Below are positions 2,111 to 33,241 of a stretch of DNA of 33,241 nucleotides, piece after piece. This DNA is from a virus. A model generated the notes under the pieces. The model worked only from the letters and a program-made list of their open reading frames with translations. It did not search any database and was not told the origin of the DNA. The stretch spans positions 1-33,241 of the IMG/VR virus record IMGVR_UViG_3300043470_002221. The stretch is one strand, 5' to 3'. Numbering within the stretch: the stretch's first letter is position 1; every line of letters begins with the position of its first letter. The translations under genes were made by a program, and so were the position numbers.

Positions 2111-3319
2111 ATGAATATCAGTGATTTTAGAAAAGTAGTATTATCTAACCAAACTATAATACTAGACTCACCAATGCTAAACGCAATTGCGGCAGGTGAT
2201 GATTTTGGGTTTAGCGTTGCGATGAATGCTACCGGTACAGTTTGTATAATAGGCGCTCCAAATTTTGATACAAATAATAAAGGGCGAGCAGTTGTCTATG
2301 CATTCAATGCAACTGCTAAATTATGGGAACAGCGAGGAGCTCCATTCCTTGGAGCTCTTAGCGGTCAAAAGCTTGGTTATTCTGTTGCTATAAATGGTGA
2401 TGGAACCAGAATAGTTATTGGCAGTCCAGGAAATTCTAATGTTCAAGTTTATTCTTGGAATGAAACGTCATATACTGTTATAAGAAATAGTACTGCAACT
2501 GCAACCGCTGCTGGTTGGAGCGTTGCGATAAATTCTGCTGGAAATCGTATTGCAGTTGGAGCACCAACAAATAGTGCCACTGGAACTGATAGAGGAGCAG
2601 TTGAAATATTAGATTATTCTGGAAGCGGAACAACTTGGAATTCACATGGAATAATCGCATATGGAGAGGCAAATGGAGATAAATCTGGTTGGTGTGTATC
2701 ATTAAATTCGAGTGGAAATAGAGTTGCAATTGGTGCACCATTTAACGATATTGGAGGAACAATTACTCAAGCAGGTCATACTAGAGTTTATCATAATACA
2801 TCCGGAACAAGTTGGATCAAATTAGGAATAGATCTAGATGGTTCCAGTATAAATGAACAGTCTGGATTTAATATCTCGTTAAATGATGTTGGAGATATTG
2901 TTGCGATAGGAAATATACAGGATGACACCAGCGCAAACAACGATGCTGGAACGACTAGAGTGTATAAATGGAGCGGTGGTGCTGGCACATCTGGATCATG
3001 GTCTCAGCAAGGACTAGATTTAAATGGAAATCCTGGAGACTTACTTGGCTATTCAGTGTCACTAAATTCTGAAGGAAATATATTGGCAATTGGAGCTCCA
3101 TTTAGAGACAATGCTAGTGGAATCGACTCGGGAGGGGCCCAAGTTTATGAATTTGATAATACTAATGTCATTTGGAAACAAATACGTCCATTATTACAAG
3201 GACAATCTGTCGGTGAACAATCTGGGCTTTCTGTATCTCTTAGTAAAAATTCTAAAAAAATAATAGTTGGCGCGCCATATACATCTACTGGAGGAACTGC
3301 TAGAATTTATTCAATATAA
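2111..3319 (+). CDS. Seven-repeat FG-GAP-like beta-propeller protein
   Basis: A 402-aa protein built from seven repeats of about 50-60 residues with the core G-x-S-V-[AS]-[LMI]-N-x-x-G-[ND]-x-[VI]-[AV]-I-G-[AS]-P. Clear cores include FGFSVAMNATGTVCIIGAP, LGYSVAINGDGTRIVIGSP, GWSVAINSAGNRIAVGAP, GWCVSLNSSGNRVAIGAP, GFNISLNDVGDIVAIGN, LGYSVSLNSEGNILAIGAP and GLSVSLSKNSKKIIVGAP. This is the pattern of FG-GAP/integrin-alpha type propellers, and seven units would close one seven-bladed ring. No membrane segment or signal peptide. In a fibre operon it is most likely a receptor- or glycan-binding tip. It ends in a TAA that overlaps the late promoter of the next gene. Fold confidence is high, the ligand unknown. 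Confidence 0.82.
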   Translation: MNISDFRKVVLSNQTIILDSPMLNAIAAGDDFGFSVAMNATGTVCIIGAPNFDTNNKGRAVVYAFNATAKLWEQRGAPFLGALSGQKLGYSVAINGDGTRIVIGSPGNSNVQVYSWNETSYTVIRNSTATATAAGWSVAINSAGNRIAVGAPTNSATGTDRGAVEILDYSGSGTTWNSHGIIAYGEANGDKSGWCVSLNSSGNRVAIGAPFNDIGGTITQAGHTRVYHNTSGTSWIKLGIDLDGSSINEQSGFNISLNDVGDIVAIGNIQDDTSANNDAGTTRVYKWSGGAGTSGSWSQQGLDLNGNPGDLLGYSVSLNSEGNILAIGAPFRDNASGIDSGGAQVYEFDNTNVIWKQIRPLLQGQSVGEQSGLSVSLSKNSKKIIVGAPYTSTGGTARIYSI

Positions 3320-6666: not shown

Positions 6667-9645
6667 ATGCCAACTATATCAACTACATTTATTCTAAAAA
6701 ATTCCTCAATAATTGGAAAAGTACCATTAGAATCAGATTTAACTTATGGAGAAGTCGCGTTAAATTATGCCGACGGTAGATTATACTATAAAAATGCTAA
6801 TAATAATATTAGTCAATTAAATCCAATACTCACTGGAGCGGCGTCATCTATTTCTACTGAAAACTTGACGTCATCAAGAGCATTGGTGTCAAATGCGTCC
6901 GGTAAAGTTGCAATATCAAATGTAACTTCTGATGAATTGGGGTATTTATCTAGTGCCACTTCGAATATACAAAATCAACTGAATAACAAAGCAAACCTTG
7001 CAAACCCAACATTCTCTGGAACAGTTGGTGGTATCACAAAGAGTATGGTTGGACTCGGCAACGTGGACAATACAAGTGACCTAGATAAACCAATATCTAC
7101 TGCAACTGCGACTGCATTAAACAATAGAGTTGATTTAAGTGAATCACAAACTATAACTGGAACAAAAACAATAAATGCTCCAATAACGGTTAATAATAAA
7201 TTCGTTACTATTCGTGGAACACCAACAGAATCACAATATGGGTTAAATATTATAAATAATGGCAACTTTGACCCAGGCACTCCATTGGTAGTTGATGGTA
7301 GAGCGCGGGTTGTTCATGGTATGACATTTGCCGCAGGTATACCAAACTTTACAAATGGCAGTGATCATACTCACGTTCAGTGGACAACGCAAAATCGTCA
7401 AAGTTGGCAAATGATTCAAAATGGCGGAGCAAGTACTACTAATGCAAATACTTTTACGTTGACTACTGTAATGACTACTGCGTCTTTACAATTTTTTAAT
7501 GAGTCAAATATACACAGCATCGACACACGAGAAGTTGTGGTGACAAACAATGTATTTCCATTTCTTGCGACTGGTTTAAAAATAAATTATAACGCTAATG
7601 CAACTGGATTAAATGTTGGTGATTTTATTCAAATAACTATGAATCCAGCTCCTCCTGGTGTAGTAGCAAATACCTACAACGGGATCGTTACTGCTGGTCC
7701 TACAACAGTAACGATCGATGGGCAATCTAAAATTCAATATACCTTTTCGTTAGAAGGATTTAATAGCGTAAATTGGACTCCAAGTTTAGCAAGTTTTTCA
7801 ACTACATTTGTTAATCCAGTAAGTGGTTTTAATAATATTAGAGTTTCATTTGCACCAACAGAATTAACCGGAACACGAGTGTCATTGACTGGAGCATGGT
7901 CTGGTATAGGCAGATATGTTAAAGTTGAAATGACAGGACATAATGCATTTGAGGGACTACCATTAGTATTTACTGTTGCTGGAAGCACTAAAATTGGATT
8001 AGTAGTTGGAAGTTATAATACATTTGTTAAAAAAGTCATTGATGCCAATACGTTTATAATTTCTGTTGGAAATGCTATTAGCGGGTTTAATACTACTAGT
8101 GGAACTTATGTGGGAGCCACTGGTTGGACATTATATAGAGGATCTACTGATGCAATTCACCAATATACTCCATCAACATCACATTTTATTTTCCATCGTT
8201 TTCCAACTTCTAATACGACCCCTACAACAACTGGTGGTAGTAAAGCAATATCTTTAGGAAATTGCGCAGAAGTTGAAGGAAACTTTTCATATTCTTTTGG
8301 TCATAAGGCAGGAGTGTTTGCTGATCATTCTATGGCACTTGGCGGAGAAGATAGTTTTATTAATGCTAATTATAGCACTACAGTTGGAGGTCAAGGACTT
8401 GTTTCATCTGGTGTATATCAAACAATTATTGGCAAATATAATACGATTGATACATCAAACACAAAACCATTTATTGTTGGTTGGGGATCGAGCGACTCTA
8501 GTCGATCGAACCTTTTAGAGTTATCAAATACGACTCTTACGCTAAACACTGCAATAAATGCAAGTGGTTCAGCAACTGCTTCATCATTCATAAGATCTGG
8601 CGGCACAAGTGCACAATTTTTAAAGGCTGATGGAAGCACTCAAGAATTAGTCACCAGTAGGACAATATACGTTGACACAAACGGAACAGACACAAGAGGA
8701 TCGTTAAGCCAGTACAGTATTTCCGTGCCGTTCGCCACTATCGGCGCAGCTATGGCTGCATCAGTAATCGGTGACACAGTGCGCGTCCGTGCTGGCAACT
8801 ACACCATCACGCAAACAATCCTCCTTAATGGTAGAGGCAACCTGCATCTTGAAGAGGGAGCCGTTGTTACGTGTAGCGTTTCTGGTAATCCTGTATTTTT
8901 GCTACTCGCAAACGAATCCAAATCAATTAGCGGAGGCGGTCAGTTTATCATAACAGGAAGCACAAACGGATTTTGGGTTCAATCTGGAGGCGACCTGCAA
9001 ACACAACTGTGCTCAGTTGAATGCGCCACTATAAGCACCACAACGTCACCACTGAATGCTGCGACAATTTTTGATGTGTCAACTGGAGTTCTGGTTGTAA
9101 ATGCTGAAACTGTTTACGCGCTGGCATCAACCATAATTAGCTGCGCTGGTACAAGCAGCAACCTACACTACGCTGTAAAGTTTACCTATTGCTCGCGATT
9201 TGCATTTTTCCCAACTTCAGGATCATCGGCGCAGATGTCTTGCGACTGCTGGACAATCGCATGTTACGGTCCTAAATGTTTTCAGATTGTTGGTGGTGTG
9301 GTTGGAGCGAAATACGAAACATTGATAGATAATTTCGGTAACGGCACGTTATTCTCGTTGGAATATGGAAATGATTCCACCCCAAATGCGTTGGTAATCA
9401 GAGGTGGACGGGCAATAACATATTCAACAAATCCGTGTATTAGATTCACCACAACAACGGGAACTGGTAAGTCCGTCCGCCTTATTGGTGATCCTTTTTT
9501 CCATACTGCTGGAGATAATTCCATTTTTTCTGAACCTTCAAATCCAAGGACGGTTCTTTCGTCATTTGCAAGCTCGAATAAACCAGTTGGTGGAGGTGTT
9601 AGTATTACAGGAAATTATTCTGTAAATGCTGGATTCACCTCTTAA
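6667..9645 (+). CDS. Large mosaic tail fibre with YadA-head-like and beta-helix modules
   Basis: 992 aa. The N-terminus has the phage fibre attachment pattern LTYGEVALNYADGRLYYKN (about 25-43). At about 526-594 glycine-spaced repeats (ISLGNCAEVEG, YSFGHKAGVFAD, MALGGEDSF, TTVGGQG, TIIGKYN) match the left-handed roll of trimeric adhesin heads (YadA type). A GGTSAQFLKADGS linker (about 643-655) joins to a distal module at 660-992. That module opens with RTIYVDTNGTDTRG, then PFATIGAAMAAS and DTVRVRAGNYT, the start of a right-handed parallel beta-helix of pectin-lyase type. DNA of this last module (about 8650-9645) is visibly richer in G+C, with different codon choice, suggesting a tip acquired by recombination. 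It is a likely receptor-binding fibre; possible glycan depolymerase activity is unproven. Confidence 0.85.
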   Translation: MPTISTTFILKNSSIIGKVPLESDLTYGEVALNYADGRLYYKNANNNISQLNPILTGAASSISTENLTSSRALVSNASGKVAISNVTSDELGYLSSATSNIQNQLNNKANLANPTFSGTVGGITKSMVGLGNVDNTSDLDKPISTATATALNNRVDLSESQTITGTKTINAPITVNNKFVTIRGTPTESQYGLNIINNGNFDPGTPLVVDGRARVVHGMTFAAGIPNFTNGSDHTHVQWTTQNRQSWQMIQNGGASTTNANTFTLTTVMTTASLQFFNESNIHSIDTREVVVTNNVFPFLATGLKINYNANATGLNVGDFIQITMNPAPPGVVANTYNGIVTAGPTTVTIDGQSKIQYTFSLEGFNSVNWTPSLASFSTTFVNPVSGFNNIRVSFAPTELTGTRVSLTGAWSGIGRYVKVEMTGHNAFEGLPLVFTVAGSTKIGLVVGSYNTFVKKVIDANTFIISVGNAISGFNTTSGTYVGATGWTLYRGSTDAIHQYTPSTSHFIFHRFPTSNTTPTTTGGSKAISLGNCAEVEGNFSYSFGHKAGVFADHSMALGGEDSFINANYSTTVGGQGLVSSGVYQTIIGKYNTIDTSNTKPFIVGWGSSDSSRSNLLELSNTTLTLNTAINASGSATASSFIRSGGTSAQFLKADGSTQELVTSRTIYVDTNGTDTRGSLSQYSISVPFATIGAAMAASVIGDTVRVRAGNYTITQTILLNGRGNLHLEEGAVVTCSVSGNPVFLLLANESKSISGGGQFIITGSTNGFWVQSGGDLQTQLCSVECATISTTTSPLNAATIFDVSTGVLVVNAETVYALASTIISCAGTSSNLHYAVKFTYCSRFAFFPTSGSSAQMSCDCWTIACYGPKCFQIVGGVVGAKYETLIDNFGNGTLFSLEYGNDSTPNALVIRGGRAITYSTNPCIRFTTTTGTGKSVRLIGDPFFHTAGDNSIFSEPSNPRTVLSSFASSNKPVGGGVSITGNYSVNAGFTS

Positions 9646-9990: not shown

Positions 9991-10006
9991 GTGTACAACT
10001 ACACAA
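9989..10006. promoter_or_regulatory. Palindromic operator-like site in divergent promoter region
   Basis: Inverted repeat TTGTGTA-CAAC-TACACAA: perfect 7-nt arms around a 4-nt centre. It overlaps the minus-strand late-promoter-like box by two bases. It also covers a possible -35 (TTGTGT, 9989-9994), 15 nt before TATGAT (10010-10015), upstream of glf. Position suits a regulator binding site or a short RNA hairpin; function is inferred. Confidence 0.4.
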
Positions 10007-10028
10007 ATTTATGATAAAATGATTTAAT

Positions 10029-11027
10029 ATGAAAAAAAGTGCTAAAATAATTGGATGCGGGTTATCTGGAATTACTGCTGCGGTGCTCCTAAAAGAAAAA
10101 GGATACGCCGTAGAGATTTATGAAACACGACCACATATTGGTGGAAACTGTGCTGATGCTTATATAACAAATACACTTGTACATCAATATGGTCCTCATA
10201 TTTTTCATACCGACGATGAAGAGGTCTATGAGTTTCTTAGTCGTTATACCGAATGGACCCCGTTTGCGCTGCGTCCAAAGGGAGACACCCGACTTGGCCA
10301 AGTAAGTTTGCCATACAGCAAGAAAACAGTATCTGAACTTGGTCGTGAGCTGTCTCAAGAAGAGATTGTAGAATATATCTTTAAGGAGTATAGCGAAAAG
10401 CAATGGGGAGTGCCGTTCGACGAGATTCCAAGCACAATTACAAATCGAATTCCAAAGACTGCAGAATGCGAAGATCCAACCTGGTTTGAAGGTCAAAAGT
10501 ATCAAGCTGTACCAAAAGATGGTTACTCTGCAATGTTTACAAAGATGCTCGAAGGGGTCACAGTACATCTAAATTGTGGAGAAGATGATTGGATGTACAA
10601 GCGAGAGGCGGGTGATTTGATTGTCTATACTGGCAAGATTGATAGCTATTTTGGCACGATATATGGACGTTTGCCATATCGTTCACTTGAGTTTAAACAT
10701 CATGTGTTGTGTGAAAAGCAAGACACATTTATTGTAAATCAAAACAATAGCACAACCGACTATACACGAATCTATGATCACAGTTATTTTATGCCAGATC
10801 ATGTCGGTCCAACAGTAGTCACGTCTGAACACCCGAAAGAATGTGGGCCGGGAGACATTCCGTTTTATCCTATTCCTTGGGGTGAAGGACAGGAAACATA
10901 TCGACTCTATGAATCACTAGCAAAGGCAGAAAAGGGAGTGATTTTTGTTGGCCGACTTGCAACCTATAAATACCTAGACATGTGGATGGCAATTAAACAC
11001 GTCATGTTAAAGTTAAAGGATCTATGA
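10029..11027 (+). CDS. glf: UDP-galactopyranose mutase
   Basis: 332 aa flavoenzyme that interconverts UDP-galactopyranose and UDP-galactofuranose. The N-terminal FAD-binding motif is IIGCGLSGITAAVLL (7-21), followed by the acidic end of the second strand (VEIYETRP) and HIGGNCAD (36-43). Other family blocks are QYGPHIFHT (53-61), EKQWG, GRLPYRSLEF, TTDYTRIYDHSYF, FYPIPWG and the C-terminal FVGRLATYKYLDMWMAIKHVM. It is somewhat shorter than typical bacterial enzymes (about 370-390 aa), but the conserved core is intact. It overlaps the next gene by ATGA, so both are probably co-translated. In a phage it could supply galactofuranose for decorating the virion, host surface sugars or DNA; which one is not shown. 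Confidence 0.92.
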   Translation: MKKSAKIIGCGLSGITAAVLLKEKGYAVEIYETRPHIGGNCADAYITNTLVHQYGPHIFHTDDEEVYEFLSRYTEWTPFALRPKGDTRLGQVSLPYSKKTVSELGRELSQEEIVEYIFKEYSEKQWGVPFDEIPSTITNRIPKTAECEDPTWFEGQKYQAVPKDGYSAMFTKMLEGVTVHLNCGEDDWMYKREAGDLIVYTGKIDSYFGTIYGRLPYRSLEFKHHVLCEKQDTFIVNQNNSTTDYTRIYDHSYFMPDHVGPTVVTSEHPKECGPGDIPFYPIPWGEGQETYRLYESLAKAEKGVIFVGRLATYKYLDMWMAIKHVMLKLKDL

Positions 11028-11701
11028 AACTAGCATTATGCATACGTGGGCACCTAAGAGGCGGGCTACAAGACACGCGCTTAAATGACTATATAAATCT
11101 GTTAAAACAAAACGGTCACACGGTTGATCTTTTTCTTCATACATGGAGTGAGTCAGAGGCAAAAAGCTCATATCGTAAATTAGACTATAGCACCGCATTT
11201 GCAGTTGAAAAAACTCATCTAGTTGATTATTTCCATAATCAAACTATAAAACGAGTGTGTATTGAAGATGACTCACATTTAAAATTACACGGCAACTTAG
11301 AAGGTGTCATTCCTGGCAGTCCTTGTCCAATATTGGCATGGAAACGCATGTGGGCCGGAAAGTTTAATCTGGTGTCTCACCTGTATCATAATCATACCTA
11401 TGACTATGATCTTGTAGTTAATACACGTTACGATAAATTTACTACGCAAGTGTGCTATACACCAACTAAAAATCTCTTGAAAATGACAACAGTTGGAAAT
11501 GGATTGAGTCTAAAATATCCTCAATATTACAGACAATTTAAGGGCATAGACAACTACTATGCAGGAGACATAAAAAGCATGTATGACATAACTTCAGCGT
11601 TTCATTATTCTTTAGATGATATTGTTAAAAAATATAAGGTAAGAGCCCTCCAGGAAGAACTCTTTTATAAATATGCAGTTGATCATGCCTTGACCCGTTA
11701 A
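11024..11701 (+). CDS. Putative glycosyltransferase
   Basis: 225 aa. The start MKLALCIRGHLRGG and VDLFLHTWSESEA (about 35-47) follow the pattern of viral and bacterial sugar-transferase-like proteins that begin with a beta strand and a CIRGxxR loop. YDLVVNTRYDKF (about 129-140) supplies an RxD motif at the place where such enzymes bind nucleotide sugar or metal. It overlaps glf by 4 nt, so it is the natural user of UDP-galactofuranose. No membrane segment. The exact family and acceptor are unknown; glycosyltransferase is a pattern- and context-based call. Confidence 0.6.
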   Translation: MKLALCIRGHLRGGLQDTRLNDYINLLKQNGHTVDLFLHTWSESEAKSSYRKLDYSTAFAVEKTHLVDYFHNQTIKRVCIEDDSHLKLHGNLEGVIPGSPCPILAWKRMWAGKFNLVSHLYHNHTYDYDLVVNTRYDKFTTQVCYTPTKNLLKMTTVGNGLSLKYPQYYRQFKGIDNYYAGDIKSMYDITSAFHYSLDDIVKKYKVRALQEELFYKYAVDHALTR

Positions 11702-11712
11702 AACGGTGTTTT

Positions 11713-11720
11713 TATAAATA
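11713..11720 (+). promoter_or_regulatory. T4-type late promoter TATAAATA
   Basis: Exact octamer in a T-run just after the glycosyltransferase stop, 55 nt before the holin-like ATG. A longer leader would result than at most other sites here. A weak hairpin (about 11693-11707) immediately upstream may be a poor terminator. Confidence 0.6.
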
Positions 11721-11775: not shown

Positions 11776-12096
11776 ATGGAACCAGAAAGATCGATGCTAA
11801 AAGAGTTTCTAGAGGGTGGTTGGATAATTCCTCTAGTTGGAGCGGCGGGGATGCTTGCCCGACTCATGACAGCAAAAAAAGAATATACCATTCTCGAGCA
11901 GTTTAAAAATATAATGTCTGCCGCCCTAGCTGCATCAATCGCCTGGTTTATACTAGAACAGACCGACATTTCAAGTTTTTATAAAGCGATTACCTATGGA
12001 ATTATAGGCGTCGTATCTCCAGAGATTATTGGAGGAATTATAAAGCTTGCAAAGCAGTTTGAACGCTCACCAGAAAAATATGTGAAGAAGCCATGA
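11776..12096 (+). CDS. Holin-like membrane protein (LydA/holin superfamily III type)
   Basis: 106 aa with three hydrophobic helices at about 15-30 (GGWIIPLVGAAGMLARL), 47-62 (AALAASIAWFILE) and 71-90 (AITYGIIGVVSPEIIGGIIKL). It has an N-terminal amphipathic head and a charged C-terminus. The pattern FxxGGWxxPLxGAxGMLARL resembles LydA-type phage holins, which form inner-membrane lesions timing host lysis. It overlaps the next small membrane protein by ATGA. Holin identity is inferred from topology and pattern. No endolysin lies in this window. Confidence 0.6.
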   Translation: MEPERSMLKEFLEGGWIIPLVGAAGMLARLMTAKKEYTILEQFKNIMSAALAASIAWFILEQTDISSFYKAITYGIIGVVSPEIIGGIIKLAKQFERSPEKYVKKP

Positions 12097-30473: not shown

Positions 30474-30501
30474 TTTACATTTGCAAAATATAGTATATAA
30501 T
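30474..30501 (+). promoter_or_regulatory. Early-type sigma70 promoter for gp55
   Basis: TTTACA (30474-30479), 16-nt spacer, TATAAT (30496-30501). This is close to the bacterial consensus and to T4 early promoters, fitting early or middle expression of the late sigma factor. The ATG at 30508 begins 6 nt after the -10, so a transcript from here would be leaderless or almost so. Confidence 0.65.
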
Positions 30502-30507
30502 GAAGCT

Positions 30508-31110
30508 ATGAAAACTGAAAAGACAAAACGAAAATCACGCGGTGATGACTATGTCAACAATAAAGATTTCTCTACTGCTGTTGTTGAGTATGTAAGTGCA
30601 GTTACAGAGGATAAAGCAAGTGGTCGAGAACCTCGACAAATTACCAACTATATTGGTGAATGCTTTATGAAGATTGCAAACGGACTGTCACGTAGCCCAA
30701 ACTTTATGAATTATAGTTATCGTGAAGACATGGTTATGGATGCAGTAGAAAATTGTATCAAGGCCATTATGAATTATGACATCAATAAGCCAACGCGCAC
30801 TGGCAATCCAAATGCATTTTCTTACTTTACTCAAATTTCATGGTATGCATTTTTACGCCGTATTGCAAAAGAAAAGAAGCAGGCTGATATCAAGCAACTA
30901 CTAATCGAAAAAGGCGGCATTGGAAACTTTGCTGAGTTTGAAGACGATTCAGACTATGGTGAATCACTTGTTGAAAAGATGCGCCAGCGTAATGACGCTT
31001 TTTATAAAGAAAGTAACGAAGTTGCTGAGACAAGTGAAAAGCCTCGAGCACAGAAAAAAGTCAAAGAAGAATCACAAAAGATTGGTGCTCTTGACAGTTT
31101 TATCTCATGA
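30508..31110 (+). CDS. 55: Late-transcription sigma factor gp55
   Basis: 200 aa (T4 gp55 about 185). Blocks: RGDDYVNNKDFSTAVVEYV, PRQITNYIGECFMKIANGLSRSPNFMNYSYREDMVMDAVENCI (sigma region 2-like) and FSYFTQISWYAFLRRIAKEKKQ, with the C-terminal IGALDSFIS resembling the clamp-binding end. It binds the host polymerase and reads TATAAATA late promoters, so it links the recombination region to the structural genes upstream. The start 30508 is chosen because the frame further upstream has only TTG (30481). Stop and next start overlap (ATGA). Confidence 0.93.
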   Translation: MKTEKTKRKSRGDDYVNNKDFSTAVVEYVSAVTEDKASGREPRQITNYIGECFMKIANGLSRSPNFMNYSYREDMVMDAVENCIKAIMNYDINKPTRTGNPNAFSYFTQISWYAFLRRIAKEKKQADIKQLLIEKGGIGNFAEFEDDSDYGESLVEKMRQRNDAFYKESNEVAETSEKPRAQKKVKEESQKIGALDSFIS

Positions 31111-32171
31111 AAATAGCAATACTCACTGACACCCATACCGGTGTTAAAAATGGTAGCGACGTCTTTATAGATTACACTGAGCGGTTCTATTCTGAGGTCT
31201 TTTTTCCGACCTGTCAGGCTCAGGGTATTACTCAGATACTTCATCTCGGTGATTACTTTGATCATCGTAAATATCTTAACTATAAAGTATTGGCACGTAA
31301 CCGTGCTATGTTTCTTGACAAACTTGAAGAGTATGACATGACCATGGATATTATTCCTGGCAATCATGACACATTTTTTAGAAATACAAATTCACTTTGT
31401 AGCCTTACTGAGTTATTGCAATATCATAGTAAGAATGTAAATGTGATTATGTCTCCTACGGTGCGAGACTATGATGGCCTCTCAGTTGCGTTGCTGCCAT
31501 GGATTACGCCTGAAAATTATGCAGAGTCATGTGCCTTTATTGAAAAAGCGCACGCACCAATAATTGGAGCTCACTTGGAACTTGCTGGTTTTGAAATGAT
31601 GAAGGGCGCTCCAGCAGTCAGCCATGGCATGTCAGCAGATTTGTTCTCTCGATATGAGATGGTTCTCTCTGGTCACTATCACACAAAGAGCAGTCGTGGC
31701 AACATTCATTATCTTGGTGTACCATATGAGATTACTTGGGCAGACTGCAATGACCCCAAATATTTTCATATATTAGACACAAACACCCGTGAACTTTCAG
31801 AGATTCGCAACCCGCTTTCACTCTTTAAAAGATTAACCTATGACGACACCCTTGGTCCTGTCACCCCAGTTGAACCAAGTGAAGTCTCTGGAACATATAT
31901 AAAGGTTGTTGTCACATCTAAAAAAGATCCATATGCTTTTGATAAGTATATTGATTCTATAAACGCTGGTGAGCCATTTGACTTGAAAATAGTTGAGTCA
32001 TTTGTAGAATATTCTGCTGATAGTATTGATGACGAATCTATTGAAATATCTGATACCTCTTCTTTATTAAACAGTTATGTTGATGCTATTGAAACAGACC
32101 TTGATAAGACCCGCATAAAATCTAAACTACAAGAACTCTATCTTGAATCTCAACTAATTGATGGCATATGA
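31107..32171 (+). CDS. 47: Recombination endonuclease subunit gp47 (Mre11-like)
   Basis: 354 aa (T4 gp47 about 339). Metallophosphoesterase motifs: ILTDTHTG (D8, H10), LHLGDYFDHR (D49), IIPGNHDTFFRN (N86, H87), IIGAHLEL and VLSGHYHTKSSRG. With gp46 it makes the Mre11-Rad50-type complex that resects DNA ends to start recombination-dependent replication. It overlaps both neighbours by ATGA, giving one coupled row 55-47-46. Confidence 0.96.
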   Translation: MKIAILTDTHTGVKNGSDVFIDYTERFYSEVFFPTCQAQGITQILHLGDYFDHRKYLNYKVLARNRAMFLDKLEEYDMTMDIIPGNHDTFFRNTNSLCSLTELLQYHSKNVNVIMSPTVRDYDGLSVALLPWITPENYAESCAFIEKAHAPIIGAHLELAGFEMMKGAPAVSHGMSADLFSRYEMVLSGHYHTKSSRGNIHYLGVPYEITWADCNDPKYFHILDTNTRELSEIRNPLSLFKRLTYDDTLGPVTPVEPSEVSGTYIKVVVTSKKDPYAFDKYIDSINAGEPFDLKIVESFVEYSADSIDDESIEISDTSSLLNSYVDAIETDLDKTRIKSKLQELYLESQLIDGI

Positions 32172-33241
32172 TTATTTTTACTTCTTTAACATATTGTAAT
32201 TTTTTAAGCGTAGGAGACAAAGAGATTACGATGAATCTAAATGATTCTCGTTCTACCTTGATTGTAGGTCATAATGGTTCAGGCAAATCACTTATGCTTG
32301 ATGCATTGTCATTTGTACTTTTTGGCAAGCCTCATCGTAACATAAACAAGCCACAACTCGTTAACAGTATTAATGGTAAAAACTGTCTTGTGACTGTTGA
32401 GTTTAAATTAGGGCCATCACAATATAAGATTATTCGTGGTCTAAAGCCAAACATTTTTGAAATTTGGCAAAACGGAATACTCATAAATCAAGAGTCACAT
32501 TCGCGTGACTATCAAAAGTTACTTGAGACAAATATCTTAAAGTTGAATCACAAGAGTTTTCACCAGGTTGTTGTGCTTGGTAGCAGCAACTTTATTCCAT
32601 TTATGCAACTTAGCAGTCATCACCGTCGTGAGGTTATTGAAGACCTACTTGATATTGGGGTGTTTAGTAAAATGAATGCAGTATTAAAGGAGAACACTGC
32701 AAAGCTTAAGGATAATTTAAAGGACACAGAAAACCAACTGTTTACCTTAAAAGAAAAAGTTGATTTACAAAAAAAGCATATCTTACGACTGCAGCAACTA
32801 AATGAAAGTAATGCAGCAAAATATTCTGAAGAGATAGTAAATCTTCGAAATAACATTGATGAGATGATGACAGAAAATTTATCTCTTAGCTCGGAATATA
32901 GCGAGGCATATGGCAAGACTCAGCAGCAATTGCAACGTCATGAAAAAACAAAGGCTTCATTGCTTTCGTATGAGAGACAAATAAAAGACAACATTAAAAA
33001 AATTGTGTCTGACTCTCAATTTTATGAAAATAATACAGAGTGTCCAACATGTAACCAAACTATAGGCTCGGAGATTCGTGAACATAAAATTAGCGAATGC
33101 AAACATAGCGCGCAAGAATTAAATTCTGGATATGACAAGCTTAAAGAGTCTTTAGCTCAAACCGGAGATTCTATACAAGAAGTGTCAAGTGAGTTGCAAA
33201 GACTAAACTCTCTACATAATAAAATACACAGCAATCAAAAC
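32168..33241 (+). CDS. 46: Recombination endonuclease subunit gp46 (Rad50-like), 3' end outside window
   Basis: 358 residues are visible, with no stop before the window edge (T4 gp46 about 560 aa). Walker A GHNGSGKS (34-41) is followed by SLMLDALSFVLFGKP, then VVLGSSNFIPFMQLSSHHRREVIEDLLDIGVFSKM, the conserved Rad50/SbcC block. A long coiled coil runs from about 170 to 285. The zinc-hook CPTC lies at 292-295, followed by the returning coil. The C-terminal ATPase half (signature and Walker B) lies beyond the window. It starts in the gp47 stop (ATGA). Confidence 0.96.
   Translation, partial: MIIFTSLTYCNFLSVGDKEITMNLNDSRSTLIVGHNGSGKSLMLDALSFVLFGKPHRNINKPQLVNSINGKNCLVTVEFKLGPSQYKIIRGLKPNIFEIWQNGILINQESHSRDYQKLLETNILKLNHKSFHQVVVLGSSNFIPFMQLSSHHRREVIEDLLDIGVFSKMNAVLKENTAKLKDNLKDTENQLFTLKEKVDLQKKHILRLQQLNESNAAKYSEEIVNLRNNIDEMMTENLSLSSEYSEAYGKTQQQLQRHEKTKASLLSYERQIKDNIKKIVSDSQFYENNTECPTCNQTIGSEIREHKISECKHSAQELNSGYDKLKESLAQTGDSIQEVSSELQRLNSLHNKIHSNQN

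Follow-up and report, generated by a model that had tools for sequence, protein, structure and literature searches.

By its length, the window (the whole 33,241-base virus record analysed here) covers only part of the genome of a T4-like phage. It encodes portal, sheath, terminase, neck and capsid proteins, and among cultured phages C48C1 has the closest portal (57%). A cyanophage host (psbA) was considered and rejected; a Photo_RC family gene is absent from the nine records searched. The glf and gt genes lie on the plus strand and share an ATGA overlap (Table 1). An earlier reading of this DNA from its letters (the sequence-only reading) had claimed a UDP-galactopyranose mutase (UGM) gene overlapping a second ORF in this way and fibre genes beside the pair; the overlap is confirmed and the fibre genes are real, as judged from phrog matches. 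Both genes of the pair are under purifying selection, with dN/dS of 0.06-0.12 for glf and 0.10-0.19 for gt. The pair should be a galactofuranose enzyme pair of aquatic T4-like phages, the Glf activity being predicted from sequence. The small divergent ORF upstream of glf marks the boundary between the fibre genes and the glf unit. An ATAAATA element is located immediately upstream of the start of this ORF.

Table 1. Features at and around the glf-gt locus of the window
Feature	Position	Strand	Basis
Tail fibre protein (neighbour, variable among relatives)	6667..9645	+	phrog tail-fibre matches
Small divergent ORF, 61 aa	9790..9975	-	start region kept in relatives (upstream alignment)
sigma70-type promoter TGTACA-N17-TAAAAT, extended -10 (TGATAAAAT)	9992..10020	+	scan; 8 nt before glf ATG
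glf, compact UDP-galactopyranose mutase (predicted), 332 aa	10029..11027	+	ATG start; Pfam GLF, PDB UGMs, model
gt, putative GT-A-fold glycosyltransferase, 225 aa, gtB paralogue	11024..11701	+	ATG start; fold, glf adjacency, gtA/gtB tree
T4-type late promoter TATAAATA, directly after gt	11713..11720	+	motif; kept in 13/13 loci checked
Holin-like protein (neighbour)	11776..12096	+	phrog_785 holin 0.002; LydA/holin III 2e-4, below cut-off
gp55-gp47-gp46 replication/transcription genes	30481..33241	+	phmmer with T4 proteins

The late promoter motif TATAAATA occurs 17 times on the plus strand of the window and never on the minus strand (3.8 expected for the two strands together). Many of the copies lie 4-7 nt ahead of the start codons of structural genes. 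The 420 nt preceding glf are free of it in the window and in 17 relatives, as are the 300 nt preceding gt in nine loci in which gt comes first or glf is missing. A copy within glf, 51 nt 5' of gt, was considered as a late promoter of gt and rejected, as it is conserved in close relatives only. The copy that follows the last gt, at a distance of 11-13 nt in the loci checked, putatively drives the downstream holin-like and neck genes. The conserved element before glf is TTTACA/TGTACA-N17-TGATAAAAT, that is TTTACA/TGTACA-N17-TGnTAAAAT, of which TGATAAAAT is kept in 13 of 18 aligned loci with a variable spacer. In G001, a near relative of 174 kb with a 97% identical Glf, the strict form of this sigma70-type element is found seven times on the coding strand (two expected), with one copy directly ahead of DNA polymerase gene 43 and another ahead of glf. 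We infer that glf-gt is transcribed early or middle in infection, because a late promoter is absent and the sigma70-type promoter is conserved. The late TATAAATA and the sigma70-type -10 elements finish as little as 4-9 nt ahead of start codons, and a Shine-Dalgarno motif is mostly missing, which suggests that the phage group of the window uses leaderless mRNAs. Such close start sites are located at 3315, 6246, 12249, 12977, 13965, 20527 and 26911 and at the glf promoter in the window, and at 76967 in G001.

UGM (Glf) is the enzyme that interconverts UDP-galactopyranose (UDP-Galp) and UDP-galactofuranose (UDP-Galf). Glf matches Pfam GLF (PF03275) at 1.8e-53 and the UGMs of the PDB at 1e-58 in sequence searches, and its model (pLDDT 93) is superimposed on the PDB UGMs with TM of 0.89-0.92 and E about 1e-35. 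Compared with the bacterial UGMs of E. coli (1i8t) and Klebsiella (3gf4/3int/2bi7), which consist of 367-399 aa, Glf is alike in fold (TM about 0.9), FAD-binding N-terminus and residues of the substrate and flavin sites, but differs in that it is shorter, lacks a helical-domain segment of approximately 31 residues behind the conserved LP(Y/F)..T stretch and has Trp at the position of Tyr181. Glf misses the equivalog cut-off of NCBIfam TIGR00031 (248 versus 303.75 bits), probably because this internal segment is missing. The residues corresponding to E. coli Trp156, Arg170, Arg278, Tyr311, Arg340, Tyr346, Asp348, His56 and His59 are identical in all 31 compact Glfs. In contrast, E. coli Tyr181 (Klebsiella Tyr185), which is located in the mobile loop, is replaced by Trp in 28 of 28 phage-clade sequences of the tree set and retained in all the other UGMs, including the three bacterial compact ones; this replacement is a within-family substitution, with the fold not lost. 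Thus, the claim that Glf makes UDP-Galf, as put forward from the sequence only, is well supported by the Pfam and PDB matches, the active-site columns and the model, and the 10029-11027 product is predicted with good support to be a UDP-Galp/UDP-Galf mutase.

The compact UGMs are monophyletic (local support 0.995) and almost exclusively viral. The intact viral relatives from the first scans all consist of 320-349 aa and the bacterial UGMs of 360-390 aa, except for four among the best 80 genome matches; the contig of one of these four short UGMs looks phage-derived. At least 261 viral contig stretches contain a Glf relative in one pattern scan. Rare compact UGMs with the tyrosine residue retained are present in Opitutales and proteobacterial MAGs (L147, L148 and L149), and bacterial UGMs of this type are a possible source of the phage clade. 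The UGMs of the C48C1 type (L094, L398-L408) form a lineage separate from that of the window Glf, in which the same segment of the helical domain is absent, suggesting that phage UGMs have been shortened independently more than once.

The gt protein gives no sequence match in Pfam, NCBIfam or the PDB and only a weak match to phrog_13607 (3e-5). Its AlphaFold model, built from an alignment with 28 relatives, has a pLDDT of 89.8. The best 50 PDB fold matches of this model are all GT-A enzymes of the GT6 family, so that the structure search does not place the protein outside the glycosyltransferases; these matches are weak, with E of 1.4e-3 at best, TM of 0.37-0.46 and identity of 9-14%. The fold matches in BFVD are stronger (7e-8 at best) and are mostly unannotated proteins of cyanophages and giant viruses, with a glycosyltransferase of Cafeteria roenbergensis virus among them (1.5e-7). 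The gt protein is likely a glycosyltransferase, and putatively one of the GT-A, GT6-like type. The label of sugar transferase in the sequence-only reading was a guess, and it is now supported by the fold only. The protein resembles ABO transferases, alpha-1,3-galactosyltransferase and bacterial BoGT6a in fold, with a sequence match absent, and this fold suggests a retaining enzyme of the UDP-Galp/GalNAc type rather than a known Galf transferase or DNA transferase. Arg135-x-Asp137, a candidate for the acidic metal/nucleotide-binding motif at the end of a beta strand, follows the strand 130-135 and is invariant among the 28 sequences, as are other residues; the classical DXD motif is absent.

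The gt family is found in 40 viral contigs, and glf is directly adjacent in 39 of them, in either gene order. The exception is a 98-kb record (L020) with neither glf nor gp42. No member is found in cultured phages or, by a pattern scan of low sensitivity, among 84,980 bacterial genomes. According to the tree, gtA and gtB arose by duplication; most relatives carry gtA between the other two genes, in the usual order glf-gtA-gtB, and the window retains gtB alone.

Candidate genes for DNA modification are present in long relatives. As in T4 hmC glucosylation (gp42, a-gt and b-gt), G001 combines a gp42-like dCMP hydroxymethylase (1.3e-97 to T4 gp42, with the RNDYAWQ motif of T4) with a gene at the b-gt position, between uvsX and gp42, which encodes a phrog_14998 protein of 342 aa. 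Only one glf is detectable in G001, within glf-gtA-gtB, and therefore the Glf of this unit is likely the donor source there. In G005 and L125, gt-glf is located directly upstream of gp55-gp47-gp46, as T4 a-gt is located between genes 55 and 47. In G005, gp42 is present on the gt-glf contig and phrog_14998 is not found, so that gt could be the DNA transferase there. G001 and G005 are the only gt-family contigs testable for gp42, and both are positive; the window itself, with its 33 kb, contains neither gp42 nor phrog_14998. In six further cases (IMG 42389, 42868, 44639, 27659, 27759 and 10885), contigs with glf-gt share a sample with contigs that have gp42 and phrog_14998. The system differs from that of T4 in that the window clade encodes a donor-making Glf and transferases of other families. 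Homologues of a-gt and b-gt are not found in G001 by phmmer, and no match to Pfam AGT or T4-Gluco-transf passes the cut-off in 10 records, which is a weak absence as control genomes are also unmatched. Weak AGT matches were discarded, as they are located in gp46 frames. G001 also has a second glycan cassette (L131:9435-11421) with Nucleotid_trans family (GT-like), DUF6492 (GT-like) and FkbM methyltransferase genes.

The genomic company of phrog_14998 was analysed at 27 loci of IMG/VR. The gene lies next to gp42 at 16 loci and overlaps glf at nine, with both neighbours at L404, and the three loci with neither neighbour are at contig ends. A further locus from the gp42 scan (L333) has gp42, phrog_14998 and glf in a row. 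Among cultured or complete phages, Aeromonas phages, Erwinia FBB1, DSL-LC01 and C48C1 have phrog_14998 next to glf, and Erwinia FBB1 and Aeromonas AS-gz have gp42 in addition. In C48C1 (L094:6552-9999), the genes for Tet_JBP (3.3e-17), phrog_14998 and Glf form an overlapping operon in this order, as in TET/JBP hypermodification operons, and a gp42 relative is not found. Dioxygenases of the TET/JBP class hydroxylate methyl groups of DNA bases, and this operon is a candidate for a complete DNA-hypermodification cassette. It differs from the arrangement in the window relatives, which have gp42 instead, and its Glf belongs to the other UGM lineage. This clustering of phrog_14998 with gp42, Glf and TET is the pattern expected of a furanosyltransferase for hydroxymethylated bases with Glf as its donor enzyme. 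A transferase function of phrog_14998 would fit both its gene context and the names given by depositors. This protein has no detectable relation to T4 b-gt, RB69 ORF003c or any PDB sequence, and homology between it and gt is not found.

In Gualtarvirus, Morganella phage Rgz1 and Providencia phage PSTRCR_121, phrog_14998 is located between homologues of RB69 ORF055c and ORF053_052c, the homology having been computed for the Morganella phage. ORF055c and ORF053_052c are the proposed producers of UDP-arabinose for arabinosyl-hmC in RB69 (PMC6024577). A phage-made nucleotide sugar is common to both systems, and phrog_14998 lies inside the homologous module of Rgz1 and PSTRCR_121; the systems differ in that RB69 uses an arabinose-5-phosphate pathway and the window clade uses Glf, for a hexofuranose, and in that phrog_14998 is not detectably homologous to ORF003c. 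In DSL-LC01 (L297:3884-7505), the order is phrog_14998, glf, a second phrog_14998 copy and a dUTPase_2 family gene. Two phrog_14998-type genes per phage are also present in Gordonia phages L298 and L301, the second copies matching at 1e-18 to 1e-23, and dUTPase-family genes lie near the paired copies in all three phages. The two Gordonia phages have phrog_14998 without Glf; their hosts presumably make UDP-Galf themselves, for arabinogalactan.

From these results, we give an even chance to the reading that Glf supplies UDP-Galf for glycosylation of 5-hydroxymethylcytosine (hmC) in phage DNA, with gt adding or extending the sugar. According to this pathway, Glf would isomerise host UDP-Galp to UDP-Galf early in infection, and hmC would be present in the phage genome owing to a gp42-type dCMP hydroxymethylase, as expected from the closest long relative. 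UDP-Galf would then be the donor from which phrog_14998 at the b-gt position, the gt protein(s) of the glf unit, or both transfer the sugar onto the hydroxymethyl groups. The gtA and gtB proteins may attach first or further sugars, and where phrog_14998 is present they could extend the sugar, which is the least certain step. The product would be galactofuranosyl-hmC DNA, which would be shielded from restriction and CRISPR nucleases. We infer the presence of gp42 and phrog_14998 in the phage of the window, DNA as the acceptor and the step assigned to gt here. In a wider form, the reading holds that unrelated phage lineages put Galf on hydroxymethylated bases by gp42 or TET, a phage UGM and phrog_14998, with an extension by the virus-only gtA/gtB in the window clade; this form is plausible, if somewhat short of an even chance.

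Among the three acceptors proposed from the sequence only, DNA has gained the most evidence, the host surface is possible and the fibres are least supported. The main rival of the DNA pathway is modification of the host surface, in which Glf and gt would be made early and cap or alter LPS or capsule with Galf, or with Gal on Galf, so that the receptor is hidden and superinfecting phages are excluded. Galf is a frequent surface sugar, the sigma70-type promoter is compatible with early superinfection exclusion, GT6-like enzymes act on glycans, and the gain and loss of gtA paralogues match antigen-like variation. Glfs of the same clade are also found in cassettes that resemble those for surface polysaccharides: many have GT, FkbM methyltransferase, sulfotransferase, RmlA-like and GDP-mannose-dehydratase-like genes as neighbours (names read from sequence), and a related compact Glf from an Opitutaceae MAG has a heptosyltransferase-like gene in its vicinity. 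G009 (207 kb) and G010 (162 kb) have a Glf of the compact clade, but relatives of gp42, phrog_14998 and TET are undetected in them. These genomes and the sugar-gene cassettes indicate that the compact Glf clade also serves non-DNA roles, and the glf-gt pair of the window could likewise work in a surface- or virion-glycan-like setting. However, phage Glf is repeatedly clustered with base-hydroxylating enzymes and phrog_14998, flippase and polymerase genes are not seen adjoining glf-gt, and gt-glf adjoins gp55-47-46 in one lineage. Modification of the host surface is rather unlikely as the role of the pair.

It is also unlikely, to a slightly greater degree, that gt uses UDP-Galp or another donor and that glf is merely co-transcribed, with Glf alone feeding phrog_14998, an arrangement which is compatible with glycosylation of DNA. 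The GT6 enzymes matched by fold use UDP-Galp or UDP-GalNAc, and L020 has gt without glf; however, a shared pathway is otherwise hard to avoid for two genes that are neighbours in nearly all gt contigs regardless of their order. It is improbable that Glf yields a different furanose nucleotide, such as UDP-arabinofuranose, owing to the Tyr181-to-Trp substitution. This substitution throughout the phage clade and the occurrence of phrog_14998 in the RB69-type arabinose module are consistent with such a product, but the remaining substrate residues are all as in UGM, and His, not Arg, at E. coli position 59 speaks against GalNAc specificity. Just as improbable is transfer of Galf by gt onto tail fibre, capsid or other virion proteins, because glf-gt of the window clade, although located between fibre and holin/neck genes, forms a separate sigma70-type transcription unit without the late promoter of many structural genes of the window, stays 95-100% identical while the upstream fibre families swap between relatives, and lies as gt-glf among the replication genes, away from fibres, in G005. 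Virion glycosylation is known for phages of other systems. Fibre decoration as the default reading is weakened by the promoters, the fibre exchange and the gp55-47-46 location.

The sugars known on phage DNA are glucose and arabinose. Galactofuranosylation of hmC by the proposed pathway would probably be a new, as yet unproven, sugar variant of phage DNA glycosylation. If it is true, the sugars known to modify phage DNA are joined by a furanose hexose with a donor pathway encoded by the phage, with consequences for escape from restriction and CRISPR. This pathway gives a testable role to two unassigned families, phrog_14998 and the gt family, and the former is paired with Glf in cultured phages (Aeromonas phages and Erwinia FBB1). 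The locus also illustrates that a sugar gene adjoining fibre genes need not target fibres. Phage UGM genes have already been annotated and were interpreted as host cell-wall genes (PMC6630229, PMC10611076); in the open-access literature, no paper was found that ties phage UGM or galactofuranose to DNA modification. In G007 (L432:9601-13891), several long unassigned genes, which possibly encode base-hypermodification enzymes, are located between uvsX and gp42, and Glf lies approximately 2.5 kb from gp42, together with one GT-like and one methyltransferase-like gene.
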